In this document: piece after piece, positions 5,436 to 20,605 of the stretch
Layout: each line of letters starts with the position of its first letter
How positions within the stretch are numbered: the first letter of the stretch is position 1
NCBI GenBank assembly: GCA_020081605.1
Contig: JAHREC010000016.1
Span: forward strand, 496,001-560,000
DNA: 64,000 nt
From: Albifimbria verrucaria
Taxonomy: Eukaryota > Ascomycota > Sordariomycetes > Hypocreales > Stachybotryaceae
Direction: 5' to 3'
The notes under the pieces: model-generated
What the model saw: the letters and a program-made list of their open reading frames with translations, nothing else
What the model was told of the DNA's origin: nothing
The model's database searches: none
Program-made: the position numbers and the translations under genes

Positions 5436-6350
5436 ATGATGGACTCACTTCATCACAACGAGGACCGCGAAGCACTTCTCGAAGGCTCCAGCGAGTCCAG
5501 TTCTATTAGCGAAAAACATCTTCGTTCAAAACTCAGACCGTCTGGAGCTCATTATTCTCGATATCTCATTGGGTTTCTCTTGATATCCCTCCTAACCAAC
5601 ATCGTATTATCCATCTTGCTCATACAGTCACGCCCAGTTGAGACACGATCCAAGTACGCAAAACTTGAACGCAATCGAGAGGAGCCATATGTTCGTCTAA
5701 CGCACTATAATTCCGATAATGAGACGCTGCAAGACCAGTTGTGGCGCGATATAAACGTCGATTATGGCGTTGTTGCACTCTCAGACGAGTGGGCAGCAAA
5801 ACACGGGTTGAGGACGGCCCAGCGTTTCCCTTGGGACCATACCAAAGGCATTTATATACTCCACGGATTTCACAACTTGCATTGCATCAAAATAATCCAC
5901 ATCTCCATGTCCGAGTATCGTAGCGGTGCTCCTCAGTCCCGCTCCTGGCACCATGTCAGTCATTGTATGGATGCCTTGCGACGACAGATCATGTGCGATG
6001 CCGACGACACTCCTCGAGCCACAGATCGTCGGCCCGAAGTTGTCAGTGGTCTCCTACAGCATCGGAAATGCCGCAACTGGGACGAACTCGTGGATTTCAG
6101 CAAGCGTCATACAGCCTGCTACAAACGACCAGATAAACCTTCACCAGATGGACGATCTTCGATCGAGCGGTATAAGCATTGTCCACCCGGGAGCGGATAC
6201 GTAATCAAGGACAATTATGTGCCTCCTGATGAGATCTTGACTGGTTTACCAGAAGAGTCTTTGGAGGATCATTTGATCAAAGTGATAAGAAACCACGATC
6301 AAATGCGAATGATGCCACTGGCCAATGATACAATTATACAAAGGCGATGA
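5436..6350 (+). CDS. UstYa-family (DUF3328) RiPP oxidase, copy 1
   Basis: Single-exon, 304 residues. The architecture is that of UstYa/DUF3328 proteins: a cytosolic tail, one membrane segment at about 43-63 (LIGFLLISLLTNIVLSILLI), then a lumenal domain with the two diagnostic HxxHC motifs, HNLHC at 146-150 and HVSHC at 173-177. The second is followed by MDALRRQIMC, as in the family consensus. UstYa proteins are Golgi/ER-anchored, probably metal-dependent oxidases that cyclise or hydroxylate core peptides in ustiloxin, phomopsin, asperipin and victorin biosynthesis; some act in other pathways. The gene is convergent with the repeat precursor 437 bp downstream, which strongly suggests that precursor is its substrate. 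The exact reaction is unknown. A second ATG three bases on is an equally possible start. Confidence 0.93.
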   Translation: MMDSLHHNEDREALLEGSSESSSISEKHLRSKLRPSGAHYSRYLIGFLLISLLTNIVLSILLIQSRPVETRSKYAKLERNREEPYVRLTHYNSDNETLQDQLWRDINVDYGVVALSDEWAAKHGLRTAQRFPWDHTKGIYILHGFHNLHCIKIIHISMSEYRSGAPQSRSWHHVSHCMDALRRQIMCDADDTPRATDRRPEVVSGLLQHRKCRNWDELVDFSKRHTACYKRPDKPSPDGRSSIERYKHCPPGSGYVIKDNYVPPDEILTGLPEESLEDHLIKVIRNHDQMRMMPLANDTIIQRR

Positions 6351-6786
6351 ATTTTGGGCAATGTAGGTTTATGTGATAGGGAATAGTGCAATTTGAAGGT
6401 CTTGGGGCTGTTAACACACAATGGCTCATGAAGTTTGCTTAGTGGTTGGACTTGAGACAATTCTATTGTAAAATGAAGATGACAGTGAATGAGAAATGCG
6501 TGGATTTGAGCATAGATGACCATGATAGTATCATAAAGTTTAATTCTAGATTGAAAGAATATTGCAGTAAGCATCTTGTTCAGACATCATGGCATAGAAA
6601 CATTCCCACATCCTTGGACAGAGCGTGGACGTGCACTACTTGAGATTTGCATTGGGTATAAGATTGAAAATGCTAACGAGTGGTTTAATACCTCCGCTAA
6701 GTTGTTTAAAAAATGAGAAAAAATATGACGCTTATTCAGTTCCTTTCCTGTTACTCTGTCCTCCTACTTTTCTCTACACATCGGCA
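6351..6786. other. short intergenic between convergent genes
   Basis: The shared 3' flank of UstYa copy 1 and the precursor gene. AT-rich, with no coding signal; it should hold both 3' UTRs. Confidence 0.5.
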
Positions 6787-7360
6787 TTAAAAGCCGTCAG
6801 CAACAACGACGTCGTCATCGTCACGTTTCTTAAAGCCATCTGCAACAATAACATCGTCCTCATCACGCTTTCTGAAGCCATCGGCAACGACAACGTCCTC
6901 GTCGTCACGATTCTTGAAGCCATCAGCGACGATAACATCATCATCTTCACGCTTCTTAAAGCCGTCAGCAACAACTAGATCATCTTCATCACGCTTTTTG
7001 AATCCGTCTGCGACAATGAGATCATCTTCATCGTCGCGCTTCTTAAAGCCATCGGCGACAATGACATCGTCCTCATCACGCTTTCTGAAGCCATCAGCAA
7101 CGACAACATCCTCGTCGTCACGCTTCTTGAAGCCATCAGCGACGACCAAATCGTCCTCTCCTCGCCTTTTGAAGCCATCGGCCACAATTACGTCAGCATC
7201 CTCGCCTCTGGAAGCCAGAATGCTGGGTCGGAAACCTATTGGGCAGTGTCAGCCTCTAATTCTGTGCGCTCAGATCACTTTGAGGCTTACCGGCAGTCGG
7301 AAGTGCCGAGGCGAAAGTGGACAGTCCAAGGACTGCAGCGCAGATTGTGAAAGATCGCAT
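6787..7360 (-). CDS. RiPP precursor with signal peptide and ten repeated cores (KexP/dikaritin type)
   Basis: Two exons on the minus strand: 7360-7291 and 7235-6787, 172 residues. The 55 bp intron (GTAAGC...AATAG, branch GCTGAC) joins a signal-peptide exon, starting MRSFTICAAVLGLSTFASA, to the repeat body; phases agree. The body holds ten copies of [VL][VI]VADGF. Copies 1-9 are each followed by a basic triplet (KRR, KKR, RKR; KNR after copy 7) and an acidic spacer such as DDED, DEDD or EDDD. The tenth core ends directly at the stop. This is the layout of UstA-like precursors: secretion, Kex2 cleavage after the dibasic pairs, C-terminal basic trimming, then UstYa oxidation. It lies between two UstYa genes. 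Unusually, the core has no tyrosine and its only aromatic residue is the terminal Phe. The product and its activity are unknown. Confidence 0.93.
6790..7191 (-). repeat. tandem array of ten core-peptide units inside the precursor gene
   Basis: Direct in-frame repeats of 42 nt (14 codons). The unit leading into copy 5 has 15 codons because of an extra Asp in the spacer. The amino-acid sequence ADGF is invariant in all ten, while codons vary (GCC/GCT/GCA, GGC/GGA, TTC/TTT), which suggests selection on the peptide rather than very recent duplication. Confidence 0.95.
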
Positions 7361-8780
7361 GTTTGATGATGAGTGATTTGCTTGATTCAAGCTATTTTCG
7401 ACTGATCAATGTGTTCGCAATGATGATGAAGAGTCTGTGTTCAATTCTTCTTCCGAGGAGAGGGAGGATTGGTTTTCTACCAACAACATTCACGGATAAA
7501 AGGTAGGCGTTTGCCTATGGATTTGCGAATGAAGTTACATTGGAGCTGTAATATCCAATCATTATACATGCGGACCAACTTCGCAAGGAAGGAGCGACGT
7601 GCCAGTTGCCTTCGATTACAGCATGAACATTTGGAAGATCCTAACTAGTGTGGCCCATACCGCCGAGACAACACGTCAAGGCTAGGCACGGTACGGCAAA
7701 AATCCCTTCCCTTGTTACGTTTACAAGTCAATGTAGGGTAGTACTGAGCAACCGAAAGGCCTCGAATGTCAAGGCATCTTTTGAAAACTGTAGGTTTACG
7801 TCGAAGAAGGAGGGAGTGGGTTAACTATCAAGCTTCAACACCTAAAGCCGTTGCATAAGCCAACATAATACTGCAGAAGATCAACAATCTCTATTCCTTA
7901 TCACGATTGAACGGACTGGAGATGTGACCCAAGTGGTATTAACGCCGAGTACCGGCTGCAATGAAGTGGGCGGGAATCTGCACTCTTACGCCCATCACGT
8001 TTGGTAGGAAGTGATCGTCAGGTGGCTTAATGCCACTTATGCATCACTTGATTGCGTATCCACAAGTCACCAATCGCATCACAAGCTCTCCTGAGGCTAA
8101 CAAGACTCCGTTACTGACATCGATGTAGCGAAACTAAGACTCATCTCATGGTTCCGTCTACTTCCGCGCATGCCCTCACCATTAGATATGAGCCTTGAAA
8201 CCACCTAATTGTTTTCATCGAACGTCTCGAAAATGTAAGAGAAGTTAAGCGAGGCAAGGAGAAAGGGATGTGATGCAATGTGCAGGGATGACAAGCCACC
8301 GCCGAATGCGTCCGTGTTGGCTGTATATGTGGATGCTTTTGTGTCAGAGGCGTTCAGCCAAGACCTAAGTTGTTGGAAACTTCAAAAATGATCCTTGTAA
8401 TGTTTGCGATAAATGGTTCAAAAGTTCTTCGCATAAGAGCTGTGGCTTATTGCCGATCCGAGTATGTCTCCTCGCCACTGCGTTGGTTAACGTAAAATTC
8501 AACCACTGGACGGACGTAAACTTGGAATCGTCCGAAAGGCAATAACCGAGGTGATTGCTGCTCATACTCCGTAGTTGAACACAATGTAACACTCCTTTCA
8601 TTCTGTAGGTTGACGTCGTTTGGAACACCGTGCTTCACACAACCCTGTGTCAGTAGACGGCTGACATCGTAGAATCTTCACGTTGGTTACCGGTGCAAAC
8701 TTTTCACTACGAATTGCAAAGCATCAATTTTATATCAAGAACTTTTTAAAAGATACCTGTAATCTTGCCCATCTGTTGCC
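7361..8780. promoter_or_regulatory. 1.4 kb divergent intergenic region between precursor and second UstYa gene
   Basis: No coding sequence is seen. The precursor (minus) and UstYa copy 2 (plus) diverge from here, so it should contain both promoters and is the natural place for a cluster-regulator binding site. I could not assign a specific operator or TATA box. Confidence 0.5.
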
Positions 8781-9613
8781 ATGGTCTTCGGCCAGTCTAT
8801 ACAAAGCAAGACTCGTTATGCCAGGCTGGGGACGGAAACGGATACCAACTACGAAGAACCTCATCTTGAGCAGCAGTCACAACGCACATCGCGCCCTCAA
8901 AGATCAAACCATGTTCGGAATGCGTTTCTCATACTTAGCTACATCACTTTTGGTGTCATAGGATTTGGCACCGGAGTGCTCTACAACAGTTCATATTCCT
9001 CCAATGGAAGTGGTGCAGAACTTGAGGAAGTTGCACACCGAATACCGCTTCCTTTAGTAAAAAAGCAGTTCATGAACGAGACCCTATTTCTAAAGGAGCC
9101 GCCCCATGGTGAAGGCTCCGGAAATATCTCTGAGCCCATATGGGACTCTCTTATTCCAAGTCAGCATCTTCCATTGAATTTTCAAGTCAATAACATAACA
9201 TGATTAACAATTTTGTGCTAGACGGACTTGGATATTTCAAGGATGGAAGACTTGCTCCGCAAACGTCGATACCGACGGTTTTCCATCAACTGCACTGCTT
9301 ATACATCATCCGCCGTGCCTACTACGATGACTCGAGTGACCTTCAGGAATTCGACTTTGGTAAAGACCGCGACGTTCATGTTGCACATTGCTTTGACTAC
9401 ATAAAGCAAGGGCTAACCTGCACCATTGACACGACCGTAGAGCCAGCAGTGGAGAAGGAGGGCGAATTTCTCGGCTTCGGTTTTGACAGACAATGTCAAG
9501 ACTTCGAGGCTTTGAAGGATTATGTGGAGAAGTACAGAATGTTCAACGCTAGTGGGTTCCTGGCTGCTGGTCTAGACCATGGCCATGCTCATATTCATGG
9601 TGGCGAAAGATAG
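8781..9613 (+). CDS. UstYa-family (DUF3328) RiPP oxidase, copy 2
   Basis: Two exons: 8781-9159 and 9222-9613, 256 residues. The 62 bp intron has GT-AG ends and a GATTAAC branch region. The joined sequence restores the family block Pro-x-Gly-Leu-Gly before the lumenal domain. There is a membrane segment at about 48-69 (AFLILSYITFGVIGFGTGVL) and the two HxxHC motifs, HQLHC at 148-152 and HVAHC at 179-183, the second followed by FDYIKQGLTC. It is clearly diverged from copy 1, matching the UstYa/UstYb pairing seen in dikaritin clusters where two DUF3328 proteins cooperate in cyclisation. It is divergent from the precursor gene. The frame is intact. Role assignment within the pair is not possible from sequence. 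Confidence 0.92.
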
Positions 9614-15556: not shown

Positions 15557-16715
15557 AGCTTAGAGAGTTTTGGGATTCAATATTGTTGCAAGATTTTAGG
15601 TTCCTTGCCTTTTCTAACTACTGGAAATATAGATTTTCTGAGGGCCTGGGGTCTTTTTGGACTGGGTGTATGTATTCTCTTTGAACATAGCAGTAATGAG
15701 GACGTAGACGTATGTTGGGATGGTCTGAATGGGCCTCCGGAATGATATTTTCTATCCAAGAAACTGAATACGTTCCGAAATTTCTACGTTTAATTTCTTG
15801 TTCCCGGATTCTTCTGAGACGGACTGATGTGCAGTTGCGGTCTTCTGCAACACCCTGCATGCGGAGCAGCATTTCGTAAACTGCAGCATTGGATGTGCCA
15901 AAAGAATAGACTGGGTTTGGTGTCAAAGCTCTGACAATACAACACGTCTCTTTTGATTCCTTACTGGAACATCGTTTTGTCAATACCGGACCAACCAAGA
16001 ATAATACCATTGGCACTGATAGTGACTTCTTGAATGTCCAGGGTAGCTTGAGGAGACGGAAGGATAGACAGGTAGTTTGATGACTGCTAGTTATGGAGCT
16101 AATCGACTCTGTTCTTGCATTGCAAGCACGACTTGTTAACATTGTATGGGTAATGGCATCTCAGTAATGGCATGAAGTACGTATCGCAATTCTCTTCCCT
16201 TGATGGAACAAGCCATTCCCATCTACTCGTAGCGGCATCGGAGATTTGGCCGCCAAGACTGTTATCGTCTACCTTCTCCAAGTTGCTGATAACTAACGCA
16301 GTGTTTAATTAGAAATGCGACTAGTCCCAGGATGACGTCTATCAAGCGTCTTGGCATGCTCTAGCATTTGCCCTTTTGCAATCAGGATGCTGGGGTAAAC
16401 CCGTCGGTTCGGCTGTTAAGACGACATTCCAGCGCTCCCATTTGCTGCGCCATTAAATAAGCAGATACGGTTTGTTCCTTTGACAAACTGAAATACCCCG
16501 AGTCACGCTGGCTGTGGAGTTGATGGACATGGGTTGTCCCCACGACACTGCACCAAGATTGAATGGTTGAATGAAGATCCGACAAGAGCCGTTGCCGCCC
16601 GAACATTAAATAGCCATTTTCCCTGCATTGAAGAGTCAGCTCACACCAAGTCGCTTCCTCCAGGACTCAAAGCTAAACCGTCGCCGAGTCTGCTCACACA
16701 CCGACGCAGTTCAAG
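15557..16715. other. intergenic with one unassigned minus-strand frame
   Basis: A minus-strand frame of 174 codons (16142-15618) is the only long one. Its sequence gives no recognisable domain and I do not call it a gene. The rest appears non-coding and includes the promoter of the carboxypeptidase gene. Confidence 0.4.
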
Positions 16716-18382
16716 ATGCACTTCCATGGTCGCCTGAGCACAGGCTTGCTCTTCGCAAGCTTAGCATCGGCTCAAGTTCGCTATGCCAATAACCAGGTGC
16801 CACTCGTCAAGGATAGCAACGTTGTCGCCGCGAACTTCCAGGATGTTGAGGGCGTTGAGCTTCACTCACCGGCATTCAGCAAGCCGGACTCTGTGCCAGA
16901 TGCTTTTGTCAATGGCACGAGCGGACCCACGGACCAGGCCACGATGGGTAAGATTGACATCACGTTTGGACACAATGTTTAATTCTAATGAAGCTATACA
17001 GACAACTTTCTCCGCACTCTGGCAGCACGCAACACCTGGATGACATATCACAGCCCTGACTTCAAGTCTGAGGAGGGACGTTCCATGCCCTATGTCTTTC
17101 TGTCCAAGGCAAACCCGTCGCAGAACAAGTCTTGCTCCCACCCTAAGCTGCGAGTATGGATGCAGGGTGGTGTTCACGGAAACGAGCCGGCTGGCGATCA
17201 GGCCCTGCTCGCCCTTCTAGGCAAGCTTGATGCTAACGCTACATGGGCTGAGGCCGTGCTGTCCAAGGTAGACATCATGATGCTGCCTCGCTACAACCCC
17301 GATGGTGTGGCCTATTTCCAGCGTGCATTTGCGACCAACTTTGATCCCAATCGTGATCACGCCAAGCTCGCGCGGCAGCAGACCCGCGATATCAAGAAGC
17401 TCGTCATGGACTACGCCCCTCATGTCGGCGTAGACTGCCATGAGTACAGCGCAAGCCGCGGCTACGGCACGCAGGGCCAATGGCTCTCGGCAGCGGATGG
17501 CGAGTTTTCTGCCATGAAGAATCTCAATATCCACAGTGACATTCGCGAGTTGTCAGAGGACGTGTTTGCAAGGCGCGTCGCTGCTGCTATGGAGAGCCAT
17601 GGTCTGCGCTGGAGCCCGTATATTGTCGGCAACTCAGGCGAACCTGTCGTTCTGGAAGAGACAACTGGCGAGCCTCGATATGGAGATAGCTCCGTTGGCT
17701 TGAACCAGGCTGTCATGTTTCTGACCGAGACGCGTGGCATTGGTCTGGGCAACCAGCATTTCCAGCGTCGTGTGGCATCGGGTTTGATCATGGTCGAAGC
17801 CATCCTCCAGACTGCCGTCGACAAGGCAGAGGAGGTATACCACATTGTTGAAGATGCTCGTGCCGAGTTCATCTCCAGCAATGATGACATTATCATTACC
17901 GAATCTTCGCGTACTACTAATGTAAGCTGGCAGTTCATTGAAAAGGCTACTGGCGACCTCGTCGATGTGCCTGTTCAATTTCTCAACACCACTCCTACAG
18001 TACCTGATATCACTCGTTCCCGCCCATCGGCTTACGTCTTCCCCAGTGCCTGGCATGATGTTGCTGAGCGGTTGCGAGTCTTGGGCGTCAAGGTCGATGT
18101 TCTTGGCACGCCGTTTCGCGGCCAGGTCGAGGCCTATACCATCACCAACTCTACACTTGCCACTACCATCTGGGAAGGTGTCGTGCAAAATACTGTCACG
18201 GTAGAAGCCAACAAAAAGAAATTCAGATGCCAGCCGGTAGCTTCTGGGTCAGCACAAAGCAGAAGAACGCTGCTTTCACCTTCTTGACGTTGGAGCCAGA
18301 AGCAATGGACTCGTACGCCAAGTTCAATATTATCCCTGTGGCTAAAGGCGACGAGTTTCCTGTGTATAGGGTCCTGGCCTAA
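16716..18382 (+). CDS. secreted M14-family zinc carboxypeptidase
   Basis: Exons 16716-16947 and 17002-18382, about 537 residues if the frame is continuous. There is a signal peptide at residues 1-19 (MHFHGRLSTGLLFASLASA). Zinc and catalytic residues are visible: HGNE (His136, Glu139), His224 in VDCHEYS, and the general-base Glu320 in FLTETRGIG. This is a fungal secreted M14 metallocarboxypeptidase, which removes C-terminal residues in the secretory pathway or outside the cell. The frame breaks at the A5 run 18213-18217. With one more A, translation runs on through a coherent C-terminal domain to 18382; without it, 18 aberrant residues are added before a stop. About 9 kb from the RiPP precursor, it is a candidate, though unproven, trimming protease. 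Confidence 0.88.
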
Positions 18383-19548
18383 ATGGAGGACAAGCAGCTT
18401 CGTATAAAGCGATGCATCAAATGTATTCTGATGAATTTACGGATACAATTTGGATAAAATGTAAGTAACAAATAAATTAATGTATGCTTGCATCTCTATG
18501 ATAGAAATTTCATTTGTCCATGATTGTGATTATTTTATCAAGGAGACTGCAACATTGAGAGATCGACCGGAACTCCGGTATTTATGTGCAGAATATTCGT
18601 TGATATTCAGAAGAATGATTTAAAACAAGTAGACCAATATCCTCACATACAGATTCTAGCCAAATTATCATTTAAGGTGAATACAGATCTGGAATTCGCC
18701 TTCTTTGACTTTCATTTTTAGCGCTGCCAGTGATCCAAATCTACATCTACTATCAGCTTGACATGGTTTGATGAGATGCATGCTCTAAAATCATCACGGT
18801 AAAGTTTGGCCTTACCAGGTTGCTGTTCATAGAGTCGCATCGTCTACTAACAGTCAACGACCGTCGTAGTAGTACGAAATACAACTCAGCAAATCTTGCA
18901 GTACGATGTGTGGGTGATTCATGAATTCTGACGGCACACAATTTGATGAAGTCAGACACTCGTTGCTGTTAATCATCCTTTTACTGACCAAATTACCACC
19001 AGTCAGATCAGATGAGCCAGAAAAGACATGTGTGACTTCCTGCAGGCCAACATTCTAGCTCCTGATGGACAGTTAACTTTTGGCAACGTACAACCTTCGT
19101 GGCTATTTTAATGGTAAGACAGTAAAGTGATGGCAGTGGGTGTAGTCTGAGTCGCTAACAAGCCGACAAGGCACCTAGTCAGATAATCAAGTCTACTCCA
19201 TTCACAAATGAGCCTCAGAATTCCATGATGAGTGTCACTTGTGGAATCGGCAGATGCCATCCAGTGCTCTGGCGAGGCCATAAAAGTAGGAGGTTGCTCA
19301 TGACACAATGTCAGGACACAAGGGTAATACTCTGTTGACCCAGCCGAGAAAAGCATAATGAATCAGACGGCCGTTAACCGAATGAAAAAGCCCGGATGTT
19401 CTCCATTAAATATGATTAAGTCTCACAATAAAGAGTACCTCCGTGGCTAGGTCCCAAGATTCAGAAAACTTTGGTGATTCAGTCTCATGCTCCAAGAGTC
19501 CTGGTGATACCCTCCAAAAGTTAAGCTACCTATATGACCTCGCGAAAA
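18383..19548. other. intergenic, AT-rich
   Basis: 3' flank of the carboxypeptidase and upstream region of the M35 gene. No gene seen. Confidence 0.5.
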
Positions 19549-19556
19549 TATAAAAA
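19549..19556 (+). promoter_or_regulatory. TATA box of the M35-like gene
   Basis: TATAAAAA lies 135-142 bp upstream of the ATG at 19691, followed by a pyrimidine-rich CCCTCCCCATCACC stretch typical of fungal transcription starts. A strong core promoter suggests the locus was, or is, expressed. Confidence 0.6.
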
Positions 19557-19690
19557 GGAGCCAACCCTCCCCATCACCATTTCTTGACTTGCACAAAGCA
19601 CTAGATCAGGCATCCCAAGACTTTACCGAGTACAAACTGCTCACATACCATTTTGGAAGTTCTTATCTATCACGGTTATTATCAACCATC

Positions 19691-20605
19691 ATGAAGTTCT
19701 TCTTCACCCTTGCCTTCCTGGTCATGTTGGCCACCGCCGCACCCATCGTCTTCGAAGCCCTTGTTCCCCTCAATGTCACGCTGGAAATGATCGGCAACAC
19801 AAAAATCAAGGCAAACATCACCAACCCCAATGATAATGATTTGAAAGCACTGAAGTCTGGTACACTCCTTGATGATACTGAATGCGAAAAGTTTGAAGTG
19901 TTTTCAGCATGTAAGCTACCTTTTCAGTTCTACGCCAATGCATGATTCATTGCCTAACATGAGGTGTAGCCAGGCAGCTTAGGTATTACGGCATACTTGC
20001 CATGTACGCTTATGACAACCTCAAGGAATACAATTTCCACGTTATACCAGCGGGCGGGTTTACGGAGATCATATACGATATTGGCACCGTCTACAATCTC
20101 ACCAAGGGCGGAGTATTTAGCATTGTCGCCAACGGTCGTCTCCCTCTTGCTGAGACTAATAGCACACTTCTATCTGGATCTGTTTCATACGTATCCAACT
20201 TGATCGAGGCAGAAATTGACGGTCAGGAGGCTGCTGCTGTCTTCGAAAATGATGCAAAACCGTTCTGGCCAGACATGGAAATGCGATGACAAACAAAATG
20301 CGGTCTTAAAAGCTGCACTAAACGACTGCATGAGCATCGCCAGCAGATCTCGGCAGGTTCCTAACTCTGACCCAGTGAACAAAATGGTTGAATTCTTCAA
20401 ATCTACGCACTACTTGATCCGCAAATCAGCTGTAGAAGTTTCCTATCGTACTTCTTCATTGTACGAGGAACTTCCCGATGGATTCATGTGCTGCTGTAGT
20501 GACATCTATGATAAATGTTCTGGGGCAATTGGGTACACGAAAACGGCTGTGATTTCGTTTGAGCTTAAAGCTCTCCAGGCTGAATCTCGTCGAATGTGCG
20601 AATAA
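19691..20605 (+). pseudogene. M35 deuterolysin-like gene lacking the HExxH catalytic region
   Basis: Exon 1 is 19691-19910, with signal peptide MKFFFTLAFLVMLATAAP; exon 2 starts at 19970 after a 59 bp intron (branch CCTAAC). The region up to about 20230 matches the deuterolysin propeptide (NVTLEMIGNTKIKANITN, GSVSYVSNLIEAEIDG). The frame then shifts near the AAAA run at about 20255, and a second frame gives the start of the mature enzyme (ALKAALNDC, EFFKST, CCSDIYDKCSGAIGYT). Translation stops at 20605 just before the place where deuterolysins carry HExxH and the zinc-binding Asp. No downstream frame supplies them. The first break may be a homopolymer error, but the missing catalytic part is not, so this is a dead protease or a propeptide-like secreted protein. 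Confidence 0.78.

Follow-up and report, generated by a model that had tools for sequence, protein, structure and literature searches.

The ustiloxin system (ustA, ustYa, ustYb, ustQ) pairs two UstY proteins with a signal-peptide precursor in which acidic residues precede the core and 13–14-mer repeats are spaced by Kex2 sites (PMC6514808, PMC6339444). Its core contains Tyr and it needs the tyrosinase homologue UstQ; ustQ, ustYa and ustYb are all described as essential for the first ustiloxin intermediate (PMC6514808). We compare this and other described systems with a locus in a 64,000-nucleotide stretch of Albifimbria verrucaria contig JAHREC010000016.1 (positions 496,001 to 560,000, hereafter the window), where a gene for a repeat precursor lies between two genes of the UstYa family (DUF3328), here called UstYa-1 and UstYb. 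The locus is very probably a minimal UstYa-family cassette for a fungal ribosomally synthesized and post-translationally modified peptide (RiPP), in which two membrane-bound copper oxidases would modify repeat peptides released by Kex2 and Kex1.

The window precursor shares with that of ustiloxin Kex2-spaced repeats, acidic residues ahead of the core and two UstY partners, and its N-terminus is a candidate signal peptide. Unlike ustiloxin, its core has no Tyr, none of the 69 tyrosinase-family matches in the genome lies on its contig (C13), and 17 selected open frames scanned besides the trio, covering part of the window, show no methyltransferase, flavin monooxygenase or pyridoxal phosphate enzyme. 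A Tyr ether of the ustiloxin/phomopsin kind is unlikely because the cores lack Tyr and the contig lacks a tyrosinase match. Two other UstY loci of the same genome (C33:327–334 kb and C8:185–187 kb) do have a tyrosinase next door and serve as an internal positive control. The single S41 peptidase match in the genome is on C41, away from the window's contig. Asperipin-2a (aprA, aprY, aprT, aprR) is also made by a small cluster with a DUF3328 protein as the proposed ring former and an aromatic core end; it has a single UstY protein, AprY, and an FYYTGY core with Tyr ethers (PMC6514808), whereas the window has two UstY proteins and Phe only. The original prediction, that a precursor with two UstYa-type proteins is sufficient for cyclisation in the ustiloxin and asperipin pathways, conflicts with the roles and gene numbers described in PMC6514808.

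Victorin would be a nearer model than ustiloxin or phomopsin, owing to its use of a C-terminal Phe. It has a Kex2-repeat precursor and a ring that joins its C-terminal Phe with a Leu farther inside the peptide (PMC9233826), and a core ending in Phe, as a victorin-like ring requires, is found in all 27 units of the window precursor and its three homologues. Victorin differs in being chlorinated and extensively modified, and the comparison is by description, not by sequence. For the oxidases, the closest counterpart is CctR, a DUF3328 enzyme that forms a membrane-anchored dimer, depends on copper and O2 and uses HxxHC as its metal site; AprY and ApnU are cited in the same paper as copper- and dioxygen-dependent (PMC12435403). 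CctR and the window proteins have in common the PF11807 domain, a single N-terminal membrane helix and a pair of HxxHC motifs lying on separate helices (PMC12435403; UstYa-1 model), but CctR acts on a non-ribosomal cyclic peptide, unlike the presumed ribosomal substrate here. A 2020 survey of 7878 Kex2-repeat genes counted 1758 with a DUF3328 gene no more than 15 genes away, as the window precursor has, and Tyr occurred in 65.6% of the DUF3328-neighboured repeats, so that about one third are Tyr-free; the sections of that survey consulted, its supplementary tables aside, do not describe the window core (PMC7329392).

Whether such a locus is a dikaritin depends on the definition. In the broad sense, a Kex2-repeat protein (KEP) cyclised by UstYa homologues (PMC10512285), the genes fit the label "dikaritin-type" given in the original prediction: a KEP gene stands beside UstYa homologues, a cyclised product would complete the match, and the locus is a dikaritin candidate in that sense only. 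The narrow sense was rejected on the Tyr-free core and because no tyrosinase match shares the contig.

Precursor architecture and constraint on its repeat unit

Translation of the gene model gives a precursor of 172 amino acids (Table 1). It opens with a hydrophobic stretch and a brief spacer, after which come ten units that run from acidic residues through [VL][VI]VADGF to a basic triplet, the last one excepted. By eye and hydropathy alone the N-terminus is signal-like, with a peak at residues 4–22. Units are spaced 14 residues apart, one of them 15, and form a 42-bp tandem DNA repeat (TRF score 340). The junctions after the first nine cores are KKR (five), RKR (two), KRR (one) and KNR (one), and the tenth core runs directly into the stop codon. 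Eight of the nine junctions are dibasic, KNR being the exception. KEPs carry an ER signal peptide, for which the window precursor has a candidate in its hydrophobic N-terminus, and at least three tandem repeats of at least eight amino acids each between dibasic sites (PMC7329392), a layout that its ten units show. Pfam matches of the precursor to ThiS-like and MobB families were weak, under their cut-offs, and were set aside. Searching the organism's own 48.4-Mb genome with the precursor (E ≤ 10) returned no match beyond its own two exons; a DGF-basic pattern gave 59 matches against 53 with the reversed-pattern control, which is uninformative, nine of them being the window array.

Pairwise comparison of the ten window cores yielded 0.69 synonymous differences per site (pS) and 0.07 nonsynonymous (pN). 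Variation in the ADGF codons is synonymous only (pN 0, pS 0.71). The four residues before the core and the three after it have pN/pS ratios of 0.16 and 0.18, and the first three core residues, at 0.27, are the least constrained part. Because the flanks are constrained as well, ADGF stands out alone only in degree: the entire unit is kept, ADGF most strictly.

The unit is kept elsewhere as well. A protein search, in which the 7995 candidates with most shared words were scored, recovered at least three precursor homologues at E ≤ 0.001 (P0001–P0003), a lower bound. Across the 27 units of these four precursors, DGF at the unit end is identical in all, the residue ahead of it is Ala in 24 and Gly in three, and positions 4 and 6 before the Phe are Val, Ile or Leu throughout. 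In all four precursors the final residue is the Phe that closes the last repeat, from which we infer that the mature C-terminus is Phe. Tyr is absent from the core in every unit (0 of 27); the core side chains are Asp, Phe, Gly, Ala and aliphatic, without Tyr, Trp, His or Cys. At position 5 before Phe the window has Val or Ile in ten of ten units and its relatives Asp in 14 of 17, and the window core is more hydrophobic than those of its relatives.

Table 1 Modelled features of the precursor and oxidase genes (positions in the window)
Feature	Position	Strand	Basis or remark
UstYa-1, DUF3328/PF11807, 304 aa, intronless	5436-6350	+	Pfam profile, motifs, model
Precursor exon 2 including stop, bulk of repeat protein	7235-6787	minus	gene model
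Ten-core [VL][VI]VADGF array with basic junctions	6790..7191	minus	tandem-repeat and motif analysis
Precursor intron, GT..AG, 55 nt	7290-7236	minus	modelled
Precursor exon 1, signal-peptide-like N-terminus	7360-7291	minus, ATG at 7360	gene model
Gap between divergent precursor and UstYb genes	7361..8780		gene positions; would hold the promoters of both genes
UstYb exon 1, N-terminal part with membrane segment	8781-9159	+	gene model, hydropathy
UstYb intron, GT..AG, 62 nt	9160-9221	+	modelled
UstYb exon 2, DUF3328 domain with both motifs	9222-9613	+	gene model

Two UstYa-family genes and the recurrence of the trio

UstYa-1, on the left, is convergent with the precursor gene, and UstYb, on the right, is divergent from it. 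The UstYb protein of 256 amino acids (modelled from 8781–9613, + strand) depends on an intron chosen by eye for the best splice sites; with either of two alternative GT..AG introns the frame stays open as well. Both proteins score above the PF11807 cut-off of 25 bits (UstYa-1 79.7, UstYb 80.5), and each carries two HxxHC motifs, HNLHC (146–150) and HVSHC (173–177) in UstYa-1 and HQLHC (148–152) and HVAHC (179–183) in UstYb. At least two such motifs are present in 116 of the 120 UstYa-1 matches listed and in 60 of the 63 UstYb matches. Hydropathy identifies one hydrophobic segment near each N-terminus; that of UstYa-1 (~38–64) is a helix in its AlphaFold2 model (mean pLDDT 70.8, pTM 0.59), which places the HxxHC motifs near the starts of helices 143–163 and 171–183. 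The model is in keeping with a metal site of the CctR type. Gene models, PF11807 and motifs thus bear out the predicted arrangement of a ten-core repeat precursor between two DUF3328 proteins with two HxxHC motifs each.

The trio recurs elsewhere. In Rostrohypoxylon terebratum (Xylariales, Hypoxylaceae), consecutive tags on one 158,033-bp contig correspond to UstYa-1 (468783), the precursor (468784, P0002) and UstYb (468785). A second precursor homologue (P0001) is listed with the same 5,555-bp contig as a UstYa-1 homologue (P0052). The third sits on a contig of only 1,549 bp, on which linkage cannot be judged, so that both judgeable precursors are linked to UstYa-1. Homologues of UstYa-1 number 123, of which 120 are listed, and those of UstYb 63, including one encoded by the window itself (P0126). 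Taking an identical contig size in bp as a proxy for the same contig, 26 of the 63 UstYb matches pair with one of the 120 UstYa-1 matches listed; these include Stachybotrys elegans, four Aspergillus and two Penicillium species, and Hypomontagnella monticulosa. In seven of the 26 pairs the tags are exactly two steps apart, which implies one gene between the oxidases and suggests a bare trio in these loci. We consider recurrence of the trio as a conserved cassette in related fungi to be supported by these comparisons, with R. terebratum the full case, and this linkage backs the predicted UstYa-type RiPP locus of a precursor with two oxidases.

We take most of the named oxidase matches, and likewise the nearest proteins, to come from Xylariales; the others include Aspergillus, Penicillium, Stachybotrys and some lichen fungi. 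The order was confirmed for four species and otherwise assigned from the genus name. In the UstYa-1 tree Aspergillus avenaceus stands beside the window (support 95/76), apart from the other five Eurotiales, and in the UstYb tree it again falls outside the clade of other Eurotiales, at a position the tree does not fix. This placement at most hints at transfer of the oxidase pair.

Proposed mechanism and competing explanations

At the locus itself the genes, their motifs, the conservation of the core and the linkage are direct observations. That UstYa-1 and UstYb modify the peptides is probable from their families and linkage, and oxidase topology, copper use and precursor proteolysis we infer from the families. 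The precursor would enter the secretory pathway, with UstYa-1 and UstYb anchored by their single N-terminal helix and their catalytic domains lumenal. The two HxxHC motifs would build a binuclear copper site at which C–H bonds of the repeated cores are oxidised. Kex2 would cleave on the C-terminal side of the basic triplets and Kex1 would then remove the basic residues, releasing acidic 11–12-mers, or heptamers on further trimming, that end in ADGF; oxidation and cleavage may come in either order. The likeliest modification would be a bond from the unvarying Phe at the C-terminus to an aliphatic residue upstream of it, a guess whose chances are not far short of even; it leads because the ring reported for victorin links such a Phe to a Leu within the peptide. 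Rather unlikely is a macrocycle in an otherwise hydrocarbon core, formed within a widespread three-gene cassette by a pair of DUF3328 copper enzymes with no tyrosinase involved: the invariant Phe would be C–C bonded to the side chain of a Val, Ile or Leu, and none of Tyr, Trp, His and Cys would take part in the ring. Product masses of minus 2 H or plus O, as proposed in the original prediction, are fair predictions.

Several results weigh against the cassette and its proposed chemistry. Equal contig size does not show adjacency, and several of the contigs exceed 2 Mb; 19 of the 26 oxidase pairs lack tags two steps apart, and JGI protein numbers do not always follow gene order. The oxidases have 123 and 63 homologues and the precursor only three among the candidates scored, and the linked loci whose middle gene was read are those of R. 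terebratum and the 5,555-bp contig. The identity matrices of UstYa-1 and UstYb are correlated over 26 taxa (Mantel r 0.72, 0 of 2000 permutations), which speaks for the cassette, but shared descent alone is expected to produce this too. The UstYa-1 model is only moderate at its pLDDT of 70.8, and the other four models reach 49.7–59.7. A fold search of the PDB returned 42 matches, none at E ≤ 0.001, and a sequence search of solved structures gave a single chance-level match (E 0.33). Because the core lacks Tyr, Trp, His and Cys, Tyr-based DUF3328 macrocyclisations are not directly transferable to it.

The lack of Tyr also speaks for a sub-case of the cassette reading, in which the UstY proteins oxidise the peptides without cyclisation, so that linear peptides with ADGF at their end are hydroxylated, desaturated or halogenated. 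For two of these reactions there are DUF3328 examples: CctR hydroxylates (PMC12435403), and three phomopsin DUF3328 proteins form dehydro-amino acids (PMC10880069). An invariant C-terminal Phe with aliphatic residues at positions 4 and 6 would suit a ring, however, and a Phe ring exists in victorin (PMC9233826), neither of which is proof. Hydroxylation or desaturation is the chief alternative to the Phe bond, and we regard linear oxidation as a real possibility, well short of an even chance.

A further reading has the precursor release an unmodified, pheromone-like signalling peptide, with the oxidase genes as unrelated neighbours. The Kex2-repeat layout is common to alpha-pheromone precursors, and 6120 of the 7878 surveyed Kex2-repeat genes have no DUF3328 neighbour (PMC7329392). 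Such an accident of position is improbable, since the R. terebratum tags put all three genes side by side and the two oxidases are found together repeatedly. A motif of alpha-pheromones is WCxxxGQxCW. The precursor has neither a pheromone Pfam match nor a core of this type, and the motif occurs elsewhere in the genome, with four copies in an array on C8 (WCYRPGQGCW) against none in the reversed control; an alpha-pheromone precursor was therefore rejected. A lone pattern match of the type WCSGKGQICW (L051, C6:4183951–4183980) may be chance. It is scarcely credible that the array is a non-functional minisatellite or a decayed gene beside two oxidase genes. It is a tandem DNA repeat, and its KNR junction has lost the dibasic site, but the frame stays open across ten units with synonymous change in excess, and three homologous precursors have a matching unit and end; we rejected the minisatellite on these homologues and on pN/pS.

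Neighbouring genes, other UstY loci and significance

Among the neighbours scanned, a HET protein, a fungal rhodopsin-domain protein, a carboxylesterase, an M14 carboxypeptidase, an M35-like peptidase and a major facilitator superfamily (MFS) transporter were left out as cluster members, no link having been shown and the tag spacing in seven loci pointing to a bare trio. The MFS gene is ~12 kb from UstYb, likewise with no link shown (cf. asperipin-2a). The M14 zinc carboxypeptidase (16677–18382, +) and the M35-like peptidase (19538–20289, +) lie ~7–10 kb from UstYb and are possible trimming enzymes with no link to the cassette shown.

A home-made heuristic scan, run without a random-region control, detected Kex2-repeat arrays in four of 20 UstY neighbourhoods (19 fetched regions and the window). 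On contig C22 (L033:6598–6978), units like DADAAWVFTGGNVKR lie ~1.2 kb from a UstYa-family match. Contig C8 has units like ENSVDSTNNQAGWGKR, with Trp as the sole aromatic, near two UstYa-family matches (L035:1637–2167), and units like SEVFSGDGHLGINSDASESSYDVKR near UstYa-family matches (L042:2406–2915). At C33:327217–334664 (L034) and C8:184829–186888 (L044), a UstYa-family match adjoins a tyrosinase-family match in a ustiloxin/phomopsin-like arrangement, and this simple scan found no repeat precursor at either.

Systems of this type are known in number, but the Phe-ending, Tyr-free core of the window precursor appears undescribed. In line with the original prediction, a search of open-access full texts, supplementary tables not being covered, did not find this core. 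There, the string VADGF occurs only in works unrelated by title; IADGF, VGDGF, DGFKKR and DGFRKR occur in works unrelated by title or in a maize chloroplast protein fragment; and Xylari- together with UstYa gives no match. According to a survey of Hypoxylaceae (PMC8403587), Hypomontagnella species, H. rubiginosum and H. pulicicidum carry RiPP clusters resembling that of ustiloxin; Hypomontagnella monticulosa is also among our 26 oxidase pairs, which gives a genus in common without equating the loci. Because the cassette is conserved, the case is stronger than for most such loci.

The RiPP search of the Hypoxylaceae survey relies on similarity to characterised precursors (PMC8403587). The UstYa-1/UstYb pair is a search handle independent of the short, fast-changing precursor. 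The core is without the side chains used in Tyr-based DUF3328 macrocyclisations, and the three-gene set is small enough for a clean host; how far the chemistry of these copper enzymes extends can thereby be put to a direct test.

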